A stretch of 64,000 bases of DNA from Synechococcus sp. MEDNS5. GTDB taxonomy: Bacteria; Cyanobacteriota; Cyanobacteriia; PCC-6307; Cyanobiaceae. The notes beneath the pieces are model-generated. The model saw only the letters and a program-made list of their open reading frames with translations. It had not been told where the DNA came from and did not search any database. The stretch is from the NCBI RefSeq assembly GCF_014279875.1, contig NZ_CP047952.1, positions 1,240,001-1,304,000 of the forward strand, read 5' to 3'. Shown here in pieces: positions 28,941-31,969 of this stretch; within the stretch, counting starts at the first letter, position 1, and each line of letters opens with the position of its first letter. The position numbers were made by a program, and so were the translations under genes.

Positions 28941-28964
28941 TCTCAATAAACATTACTATTGAGA
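28941..28964. promoter_or_regulatory. inverted repeat in front of the Fur/PerR-like gene
   Basis: Perfect 8-bp inverted repeat TCTCAATA / TATTGAGA separated by 8 nt (AACATTAC), AT-rich, ending 18 nt before the ATG at 28983. Position and shape fit an operator for autoregulation by the Fur-family protein encoded next to it, and Fur/PerR boxes are AT-rich palindromes. It is only approximately like the classical GATAATGATAATCATTATC box. Confidence 0.6.
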
Positions 28965-28982
28965 ATGAAAAGCAGGATTCGG

Positions 28983-29432
28983 ATGCCATCGGTCTCCACG
29001 CAACCCGAGACTGCCGGATCTCTTAAGCAAGGGCTGCATCAAGGCGGACGTCGTCTGACCCCCCAGCGCCGGCGGATCCTTGAGTTATTCGAATCGCTTG
29101 GGGGTGGACGGCATCTCAGCGCGGAGGACGTGCACCATCAACTGCTGAATCGTCAGTTAAAGGTCTCGCTCGCCACGATCTATCGCACACTGAGGCTGCT
29201 GGTGGAGATGGGGTTTCTTCAGGAACTACAAACCAGCAACGGCAGCCAGTTTGAACTCGCTGACGCCGAACACATCCGCCACCACCACCTCGTTTGTGTG
29301 CGCTGCGGGCGCACGGAGGATTTCGAAAGTGAAGCCGTTCTGAATGCAGGATTGAAAGCCAGCCAGGGATTTGGCTTTGACCTCATCGGCTCCAGCCTCA
29401 CGGTGCGAGGCATTTGCCCTCAGTGCCGATGA
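28983..29432 (+). CDS. Fur family transcriptional regulator, PerR-like
   Basis: 149 aa from the ATG at 28983, chosen because an AGGA precedes it and the palindrome would otherwise lie inside the gene (frame is open to 28959). Winged helix with RRLTPQRRRILELF and LATIYRTLRLLVEMG; His-rich hinge (RHHHLVCVRCG) and C-terminal structural zinc site CVRCG ... ICPQC. The C-terminus resembles Synechocystis PerR more than Fur or Zur, but sub-class is not certain by eye. Convergent with the DUF3721 protein (7 nt apart). Confidence 0.88.
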   Translation: MPSVSTQPETAGSLKQGLHQGGRRLTPQRRRILELFESLGGGRHLSAEDVHHQLLNRQLKVSLATIYRTLRLLVEMGFLQELQTSNGSQFELADAEHIRHHHLVCVRCGRTEDFESEAVLNAGLKASQGFGFDLIGSSLTVRGICPQCR

Positions 29433-29439
29433 AGAGAGA

Positions 29440-29922
29440 TCAGTGATGCTCCTGCGGATGCTCCAAACAAGGCATCCAGAAGTCACCCATTTGATGGACA
29501 CCCTTGCAGCCAAGGCTCTTGGCCTGTTCTTCGGCAAGCTCTCGGGTTGGGTAGGCAAGAGTTCGGGGATCATCCCCGGTCAGGGCCCCTGATCCTTCGC
29601 CGCGCTGATGCGCGTGGTGATCGTGATCACCAGGTTGGGCTCCCATTCGCACCAGGCCCATACTCATCGGTCCTGCGGTCCACACCCCCATGGTGTTCAC
29701 CCCAACCGCAAGCAACCCCATACCCACAATCGAGAGATTGATCAAACCCATGGCCACAACGCCAATGGAAACCACACCCATCGGAACGATTCCGATACAC
29801 ACGACCCCCATCGGAACGATTCCAATGGACACCGTGCCCAAAGGAGCGATACCAATGGCCAGGCGTTTGGGTTTGCTGCCGCAATGTGCAGGCCCCTGAT
29901 CAGACGATTGCAATGCGTTCAT
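29440..29922 (-). CDS. decapeptide-repeat protein with C-terminal DUF3721 domain
   Basis: 160 aa from the ATG at 29922. Residues ~20-90 consist of about seven consecutive ten-residue units of the type xxGIVPMGVV (for example SIGIVPMGVV, CIGIVPMGVV, SIGVVAMGLI), mirrored in the DNA as a 30-nt periodicity. This suggests a hydrophobic membrane or beta-solenoid module. A His/acidic linker follows (GDHDHHAHQRGE), then a ~45-residue C-terminal domain with SLGCKGVHQMG and MPCLEHP, matching DUF3721 of marine cyanobacteria (Cys and His placed as potential metal ligands). The function is unknown. Confidence 0.75.
   Translation of the reverse strand: MNALQSSDQGPAHCGSKPKRLAIGIAPLGTVSIGIVPMGVVCIGIVPMGVVSIGVVAMGLINLSIVGMGLLAVGVNTMGVWTAGPMSMGLVRMGAQPGDHDHHAHQRGEGSGALTGDDPRTLAYPTRELAEEQAKSLGCKGVHQMGDFWMPCLEHPQEHH
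29777..29823 (+). repeat. 30-nt tandem-repeat units in the decapeptide-repeat gene
   Basis: The 17-mer CCCATCGGAACGATTCC occurs exactly at 29777-29793 and 29807-29823, spaced by exactly 30 nt, in phase with the ten-residue protein repeat; neighbouring units (about 29690-29870) are diverged copies. The spacing and reading frame show this is a protein repeat, not a CRISPR array. Confidence 0.85.
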
Positions 29923-29977
29923 GCACCCATGATGACGTTTGCCCCCACCACGCCTACGCCGAGCCAAGCTGAATGTG

Positions 29978-30238
29978 ATGAACATTGGTCAGCTTCAAGG
30001 ATTCCACGAGGTTCTCGTGATCACCCCCCTGACATTCGAGCAGGGTGCGGAGGTGGTCCTGGCCGTTCGCGACCAATGCACCGTGGTGCTGAATCTCACG
30101 GCCATGGAACCGTCTTTGGCACAGAGGACTGCCGATTTCGTCTCCGGGGGCGTCAGAGCACTCGATGGCCAGGAACACCGCGTTGGAGATCAGGTTTTGC
30201 TCTTTGCGCCAGCAAACGTCGATGTGAATCTCAGCTGA
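29978..30238 (+). CDS. short SepF-like protein
   Basis: 86 aa. The C-terminal core of SepF is recognisable: VVLNLTAMEPSLAQRTADFV (the conserved VVLNLT.MD..QAQRAVDFV strand-helix), GGVRALDGQEHRVG and LLFAPANVDV. SepF tethers FtsZ to the membrane through an N-terminal amphipathic helix; this protein lacks that extension and linker, beginning near MNIGQLQGFHEVLVITP. It may be a second, truncated paralog; the main sepF is not in the window. Start by ATG at 29978 (weak Shine-Dalgarno). Its stop overlaps arsS by 8 nt, convergently. Confidence 0.85.
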   Translation: MNIGQLQGFHEVLVITPLTFEQGAEVVLAVRDQCTVVLNLTAMEPSLAQRTADFVSGGVRALDGQEHRVGDQVLLFAPANVDVNLS

Positions 30239-31208
30239 GCGAACCGCCACAACTGGATCCCTGTCCAGCTGTGCAACCGAAGCAATGATCATCAACGGCA
30301 ATGGGCTGATCGACCAAGCCATCCTGAATTGTCAACAGATCCGCGAGCACGGCAGGCTCCGCGCCGACTGAACAACCAAGTTGTTGGTTGAAATCGCAGT
30401 CATGAAGTGCACCCGTCCAGCTGACGCTGATCAACGTCCGACACATCACACCATCAAGATTGTCTGAACGATGCGCCTCTTGGAGGAGGTTTTGATAACA
30501 CTCCAGCTCTCCACTAACTTCCAGATCTCGAGCAAAACGCTTGATCGGCATGTTGGCGATCGTCAGCAAATGATGAAAAGAAATCCCATGGGATGCCTTC
30601 AGCTGCTTTCTGTATTGCTCTTCCAGCGAATGCTGGGGTGGTGGCAAGGAGGGACCGGATGGGTTGTAGACAAGATCCAGCTTCAGTGAGGAGCCAGGCA
30701 TTCCGTATCCCAACCGATTGAGCACTTGCAAGGCATCGAGACTGCGCTCGAACACACCTCGGCCTCGTTGTCGATCAACCCGTTCCTGCTCATAACAAGG
30801 CAGCGATGCCACGATGCGAACACCTGAATCAGCGAGGAATTCAGCAAGTGATTCCTGACCAGGTTCCGTAAGAATCGTGAGGTTGCATCTGTCAATCACC
30901 TCAACATCCTGGGCGCGGGCGGCACTGACAAGGTCTCTGAACTGCGGATGAAGCTCAGGAGCACCCCCAGTCAGATCGAGGGTTTTCAACTGGCAGTGCT
31001 TCAGGACCTGCGGAATGAGCTCCACTTGATGAGGCTCCATCATTTCCGTGCGCCAGGGCCCCGCATCCACGTGGCAGTGATTGCAGCTCTGATTGCAGCG
31101 GTACCCGAGGTTGACCTGAAGTGTTTCCAGGCGACGTCGTCGGATTGATGGGAATGACGAAAGCAGAGCATCCATGGCGTCAGGTTGGATTCTGACCGAC
31201 TCCGCCAT
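30231..31208 (-). CDS. arsS: arsenosugar biosynthesis radical SAM protein ArsS
   Basis: 325 aa from the ATG at 31208. The radical SAM cluster is CNQSCNHCHVDAG (C38, C42, C45), followed by TLDLTGGAPELHPQF, and the family's C-terminal extension has the Cys-rich DDHCFGCTAGQGSSCGG. ArsS acts after ArsM in oxo-arsenosugar formation in cyanobacteria; arsM is not in this window. Start codon overlaps the stop of the upstream gene (TGATG), so it is translationally coupled to a secreted unknown. Confidence 0.92.
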   Translation of the reverse strand: MAESVRIQPDAMDALLSSFPSIRRRRLETLQVNLGYRCNQSCNHCHVDAGPWRTEMMEPHQVELIPQVLKHCQLKTLDLTGGAPELHPQFRDLVSAARAQDVEVIDRCNLTILTEPGQESLAEFLADSGVRIVASLPCYEQERVDRQRGRGVFERSLDALQVLNRLGYGMPGSSLKLDLVYNPSGPSLPPPQHSLEEQYRKQLKASHGISFHHLLTIANMPIKRFARDLEVSGELECYQNLLQEAHRSDNLDGVMCRTLISVSWTGALHDCDFNQQLGCSVGAEPAVLADLLTIQDGLVDQPIAVDDHCFGCTAGQGSSCGGSLS

Positions 31209-31969
31209 CAAGGTTCCGCAGCAATTCGGTCGATGAGCGCCACCGTTAGATCGTCCCCTTGGGTTTGAAGGTAGGCATACCCCGTTCCGTCGGAACGAAG
31301 AACCGCTGCATACACGTAATTCACTCCCCGGGCATCTTGCTGACGAATGCGACCGACGCAATTGTCATCCTGAAGAAAGCGACCTTGATAGGCCGCCACC
31401 TCACCGGCACCGTCGTACGACGACACGGCCAGACCAGCCATTTGCCACGCCGACCAGGTCTCTCGTTGAATCACGGCATTGGGAGTCCAGGCTCCATTCG
31501 CGAACGTCATCCCCATCTGACGACTGAGCAGGGTGCCATCCATTGCAGAGGGTTTGCAGTCACCAGCTGGCTGGGGCAACCACTGCTCCGTCACGACATC
31601 ACCGACCTTCGTGCTGATGCCAAAACGGGGGGTCCCTTGATCGGTGAGCAGCACACTGCTCCCACTTCCCTGCTGGTCACGCGTCACGGTGAGACCGCAT
31701 GTGGAAACTTGTTGCCACCGTCCCTGATACCGGGTTTCGCTGTAACGACGTCCCACACGCAGAAAGCGTCGACCACGAACCGATCCATCCTCCGACCAGG
31801 TCTCAACCTGCAAACCACCCAGAGGTGATCCGCCACGCTGGCCCTGGCGGATCACCAGATAACTGCCAGGACGCGGAGCGGCACACTCCTTTGGTTCCGG
31901 TTGATTGGCACGAACCGATGCCGGCAAGAGAACAGCCAACAACATCGGTCCGAAGAACAGCGAACGCAT
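31208..31969 (-). CDS. secreted hypothetical protein
   Basis: 253 aa with a Sec signal peptide (LFFGPMLLAVLLPASVRA). The mature domain is strand-rich with repeated Gly/Trp positions and four Cys. No family recognised. Coupled by a 1-nt overlap to arsS, which may be coincidental. Confidence 0.6.
   Translation of the reverse strand: MRSLFFGPMLLAVLLPASVRANQPEPKECAAPRPGSYLVIRQGQRGGSPLGGLQVETWSEDGSVRGRRFLRVGRRYSETRYQGRWQQVSTCGLTVTRDQQGSGSSVLLTDQGTPRFGISTKVGDVVTEQWLPQPAGDCKPSAMDGTLLSRQMGMTFANGAWTPNAVIQRETWSAWQMAGLAVSSYDGAGEVAAYQGRFLQDDNCVGRIRQQDARGVNYVYAAVLRSDGTGYAYLQTQGDDLTVALIDRIAAEP

Follow-up and report, generated by a model that had tools for sequence, protein, structure and literature searches.

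Copper-binding proteins built on methionine and histidine are known, and CopM of Synechocystis is described as using both residues as ligands and as a periplasmic dimer of helical bundles (PMC12292863). A further described system is the PetRP copper switch of plastocyanin and cytochrome c6, whose regulon is said to include two proteins of unknown function (PMC7896320). The gene considered here lies on the minus strand of a 64,000-nucleotide stretch of Synechococcus sp. MEDNS5 (contig NZ_CP047952.1, positions 1,240,001 to 1,304,000; the window, meaning the whole stretch that was analysed) and encodes a decapeptide repeat fused to a DUF3721 domain (PF12518). It resembles CopM in that Met and His are the likely ligands of its protein family, but here the ligands recur at every tenth residue, like the rungs of a ladder, within a repeat that is hydrophobic and rich in Gly. 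It resembles the PetRP system in that petR-petP lie near the repeat gene in seven of 51 non-marine loci, whereas PetR is absent from the window's own family. On balance, comparison of sequences and gene neighbourhoods suggests that the fused protein probably handles Cu(I) in association with a membrane and has a link to plastocyanin and cytochrome c6.

An earlier note on this DNA knew of no described function for the protein, and the literature collection searched yielded nothing on DUF3721, the GLTT repeat, PF01744 or PF12518. In the parts of the cyanobacterial metal literature covered by the search the fused gene is not mentioned, and an evenly spaced Gly-rich ladder fused to DUF3721 is without description in the literature searched. 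In Pfam, the C-terminal domain matches the entire DUF3721 profile (positions 1-33 of 33; 65 bits against a curated cut-off of 27), but the other copies of this domain that were read are small proteins, many with a signal-peptide or lipobox-like start as judged by eye, whereas here it is fused to a hydrophobic repeat. The repeat itself matches GLTT (PF01744; 50.6 bits against a cut-off of 21) in four stretches with a period of five, which the earlier note had not recognised. The type members of GLTT are nematode proteins, and a shared period and composition, rather than common ancestry, may account for the match; Pentapeptide_2 (PF01469) stayed below its curated cut-off (11.8 bits against 26.4). 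The parts of the gene are given below, invariance being counted in an alignment of 41 homologues.

29440..29922, minus strand: fused repeat-DUF3721 gene, 160 amino acids, stop codon included in the coordinates; homologues in 42 named loci.
29866..29886, minus strand: N-terminal HCGSKPK motif, residues 13-19, with H13, C14, G15, K17, P18 and K19 invariant.
29653..29862, minus strand: seven decapeptide units, residues 21-90, with Met 38, 48, 58, 68 and 78 invariant and Leu 28 opening the ladder.
29608..29628, minus strand: His/acidic linker DHDHHAH, residues 99-105, variable among homologues.
29455..29553, minus strand: DUF3721 domain, residues 124-156, with C139, H143, M145, W149, M150 and C152 invariant in the 41 fused proteins.

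The start at 29922 (MNALQ...) is common to the homologues, and the C-terminal end of the protein is rich in Cys, His and Met. About seven decapeptide units with a 30-nt period in the DNA, followed by the His/acidic linker and a DUF3721 end containing Cys and His, had been described in the earlier note, and all of these held. Comparing the protein with itself at lag 10 gives an identity of 0.475 (shuffle mean 0.115), and the DNA at lag 30 gives 0.585 (codon-shuffle mean 0.335), with 0 of 10000 shuffles as high in either case; the decapeptide period of the fused protein is not chance. Since lag 5 is periodic too (protein identity 0.288, 0/10000 shuffles), the basic unit is a pentapeptide in alternating pairs, which gives the period of ten. 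Tandem Repeats Finder has no entry at the fused gene, and the DNA copies are therefore well diverged, with the period held at the protein level. Relatives of the fused protein conserve both the unit count and the ladder residues, the five ladder methionines and the glycines after them being invariant while the linker differs in length, and the array thus reads as fixed, unlike a freely expanding tandem repeat. Alignment A1 leaves out loci L069 (unknown residues) and L103 (truncated in DUF3721), and alignment A2 leaves out L069. Loci L068 and L069 come from contigs titled Gammaproteobacteria with a Synechococcus-type gene order, and are probably mis-binned.

A search of the class covered 388 genomes and found the repeat in 110, of which 48 lie outside the window's family. 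The non-marine set consisted of 51 loci, drawn from all of these 48 genomes and three more, and a repeat open reading frame was readable in 47 of them, L141, L145, L201 and L205 giving none. None of the non-marine repeat frames listed carries a DUF3721 end, and most have a His- or Met-rich tail; taken over the 47 proteins, the tails after the repeat contain 175 His and 85 Met among 1082 residues, with MDHSGMDHG-like stretches. When the residue preceding Gly was counted in the ladder phase of these proteins, defined as the phase richer in Met and His and so slightly favouring this result, 166 Met and 100 His were obtained among 292 positions, and Leu, Ile and Val once each, while the other phase gave 10 Met and 1 His among 317. 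The commonest ladder strings are HHHMMM and HHHMMMM (23 of the 47). In the 41 marine proteins the ladder phase gave 220 Met, 41 Leu, one Gly and no His among 262 positions, with one Met and one His among 275 in the other phase; Leu stands at the first position and Met at all other counted positions except for the single Gly. Non-marine ladder residues thus exchange among metal ligands (Met and His together 266/292) and hardly ever with aliphatics (3). Since a methionine used for packing would be expected to swap with Leu, Ile or Val, whereas the observed swap is with His, the pattern suggests a soft-metal ligand at the ladder position. The likely ligands would then sit in the repeat itself and not in the C-terminal domain alone, which widens the earlier note's placing of a metal site in that end.

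The genes beside the non-marine repeat gene point to copper in part of the set. Seed matches near it in the 51 loci were to PetR (7), PetP (7), cytochrome c6 (10), DUF1775 (6) and CopC/CopD (3), and any of these five copper seeds was present in 13 of 51 loci, whereas 40 control stretches, each about 10 kb long and drawn from 20 of the genomes concerned, had none (Fisher p 2.5e-4). The PetR-like and PetP-like genes occur in loci of six genera. In one genus, six loci have cytochrome c6 and DUF1775 genes together with the repeat gene, three of them with CopC/CopD as well, and in L137 the cytochrome c6, repeat, DUF1775 and CopC/CopD genes are consecutive on one strand. At one genome per genus, 22 of 27 genomes contain one or two PetR matches and five contain none; in 6 of the 27, PetR and the repeat gene are no more than about 4 kb apart. 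A gene for a PepSY-like transmembrane protein, recognised by eye, stands directly before the repeat gene in L196, L197, L204 and L212, with petR-petP within about 4 kb.

DUF3721, the other half of the fused protein, was followed in 40 Synechococcus stretches of about 8 kb carrying it as a stand-alone gene. Their neighbours matched cytochrome c6 in 20, a Mn/Zn-type permease in 22, HupE in 8, a small PepSY-like protein in 14 and RND parts in 5. A cytochrome c6 gene lies about 90 nt downstream of DUF3721 on the same strand in L222, and in the window's own genome a DUF3721 domain (912134-912229) is followed by a cytochrome c domain (912423-912659, one of 5 PF13442 matches). Within the stretches examined, a cytochrome c6 match is missing from all 42 fused loci, and the fused gene is therefore connected with cytochrome c6 indirectly, through relatives of each half. 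In 26 of the 42 loci, mostly Prochlorococcus, the gene immediately upstream of the fused one is a small DUF3721 gene that ends within about 30 nt of the presumed fused-gene start, and five of these 26 have a repeat-only gene just downstream too. A second class of stand-alone DUF3721, of the NN.KWMPCADERELH type, was seen beside a small PepSY-like membrane protein in L136 (10249-10841) and in 14 of the 40 loci L221-L260, with RND efflux genes also adjacent in some loci.

Residues 21-91 of the fused protein are 71 residues without D, E, K or R, with 19-residue hydropathy windows of up to 2.49, and a membrane location is likely for the repeat protein. The metal-related and membrane-associated role put forward in the earlier note is thus supported by the Met/His exchange, by this charge-free and hydrophobic stretch and by the copper-type neighbours of some relatives. 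On the bundle or solenoid that it imagined the models are divided: AlphaFold modelled the repeat as strands in the full-length protein (mean predicted local distance difference test (pLDDT) 49.4) and as helices in a repeat-only construct (construct residues 39-65, mean pLDDT 56.4), both at low confidence. These mutually contradictory repeat models were set aside, and the best structural match of the low-confidence full-length model (Z 5.0) was not interpreted. DUF3721 was modelled as a helix and a beta hairpin (pLDDT about 76-81). In the PDB sequence search, the fused protein gave weak matches only (best E 0.37) and the DUF3721 profile none.

The copper handler is thus proposed from what is observed, namely a conserved repeat, ladder positions at which Met and His replace each other, the fusion and the gene neighbourhoods, and we infer from these that a metal is bound, which metal it is, the insertion into the membrane and the direction of transfer. 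Each unit of the Gly-rich decapeptide repeat would offer one soft ligand, Met in marine strains and often three His followed by Met elsewhere, and the ion may be taken up or passed on by the His/Met-rich tail or, in marine picocyanobacteria, by the fused DUF3721 domain with its Cys, His and Met. Such a protein could buffer, deliver or withhold copper as cells balance plastocyanin against cytochrome c6, and in Prochlorococcus the secreted DUF3721 protein encoded just upstream might be its partner outside the membrane. A bolder form of the proposal, which is unlikely as it stands, would have the membrane-embedded ladder of even Met/His ligands act as a relay or channel for Cu(I) that has gone unrecognised in the copper economy of plastocyanin and cytochrome c6 in cyanobacteria, joined to DUF3721 in the PetR-less marine picocyanobacteria and paired there with a secreted DUF3721 partner.

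Several points weigh against the copper handler. The definition of the ladder phase given above leans slightly in favour of Met and His. None of the five copper seeds is present in 38 of the 51 non-marine loci, and the seeds were picked after L137 and L146 had been seen, both of which are among the 13; the comparison is thus partly post hoc, and 11 of 49 remain without these two. One genus supplies 6 of the 13, and when counted by genus the comparison becomes 7/27 against 0/12 (p = 0.058). L204 and L212 are near-identical gene for gene and may not be independent; their genomes are assigned to different families, and the near-identical order and proteins suggest mis-binned contigs or a very recent transfer. 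Two further seeds, RND (1/51 compared with 1/40 controls) and response regulator (8/51 compared with 9/40), did not discriminate and were dropped as evidence. The stand-alone DUF3721 set comes from one genus and has no controls, and the missing cytochrome c6 match at the fused loci counts on the same side. PetR (PF03965) was found in 0 of 61 genomes of the window's family, its own genome included, and PetRP therefore cannot control the fused gene there; if copper is indeed the metal, its control must differ from that described for Synechocystis.

The neighbourhoods also bear on the choice of metal, because the same parts might handle zinc, nickel or manganese as an accessory of uptake or efflux systems. 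This explanation, rather unlikely in itself, is the main rival, since beside DUF3721 Mn/Zn-type ABC transporter genes (22/40 by the permease seed) and HupE (8/40) are as common as cytochrome c6. It is further favoured by HupE matches in 5 of the 42 fused loci and by genome G040, where the repeat gene has an ABC-3 permease gene and a Fur-family gene at a distance of 2-3 kb, but the PetRP, cytochrome c6, DUF1775 and CopC/CopD neighbours indicate copper. Ligand sets made of Met only suit Cu(I) better than Zn or Mn, as general coordination chemistry has it, and the marine ladders are of this kind. It is quite unlikely, on the other hand, that the repeat binds no metal and is a hydrophobic membrane anchor or oligomerisation module, with Met serving for packing and the chemistry confined to DUF3721. 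The 71 uncharged residues with their high hydropathy and the helices of the low-confidence repeat-only model would both agree with such an anchor, but the non-marine ladder Met swaps with His (100) and hardly with aliphatics (3/292); in marine proteins Leu occupies the first ladder position.

A peroxide-stress protein controlled by the neighbouring Fur/PerR-like regulator, with its methionines as an oxidant sink, is also conceivable for a Met-rich protein whose gene ends 7 nt from that of the regulator, and the flanking genes, both called by profile search, are as follows.

28959..29432, plus strand: Fur-family regulator, convergent neighbour.
29939..30238, plus strand: SepF-domain gene, divergent neighbour, start uncertain.

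By these coordinates the Fur-family gene, ending at 29432, is convergent with the fused gene at a distance of 7 nt, as the earlier note had it, and its assignment to the Fur family stood. As to its type, the PDB matches are divided alike among Fur, Zur and PerR, and all NCBIfam equivalogs stay below their cut-offs. The tie to the regulator proved weak. The Fur-family gene stands beside the fused gene in 16 of the 42 loci and in none of the other 26, and, being convergent, it has no promoter in common with it. A crude palindrome scan by eye revealed no box shared by 21 upstream regions. With the ladder Met exchanging with His besides, the oxidant sink is highly improbable. A SepF-domain match adjoins the fused gene in 14 of the 16 loci that retain the Fur-family neighbour, and ArsS, a radical SAM protein of arsenosugar biosynthesis, is encoded at 30231-31361 on the minus strand of the window (444 bits against a cut-off of 300). 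An OprB-like porin gene lies near the fused gene in six Prochlorococcus-type loci, L077, L078, L081 (3673-4827, minus strand), L088, L089 and L095, and the porin of L081 has a very His/Met-rich N-terminus (HHDHHMHNDSHMNM).

The small protein is common to most marine picocyanobacteria. Of 151 genomes sampled from the window's family, 135 gave a match in a protein search (89 of 95 among those of good quality), in some cases confined to the repeat. Within the genus, 30 of 31 genomes contain DUF3721, mostly as more than one copy, and the window's genome has three. Of 14 stretches of viral contigs matching a pattern, none encodes a relative, and among plasmids nothing matched one non-marine relative used as query.

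How plastocyanin is supplied with copper, and how cytochrome c6 takes its place, is central to cyanobacterial photosynthesis. A family with an even Met/His ladder, some of whose members adjoin petR-petP and petJ, offers a concrete candidate for a part still missing from copper handling. The ladder would be a compact design for a soft-metal path, open to direct testing by residue replacement and, because 135 of the 151 sampled genomes of the family have a match, its function would concern much of the ocean's picocyanobacteria.
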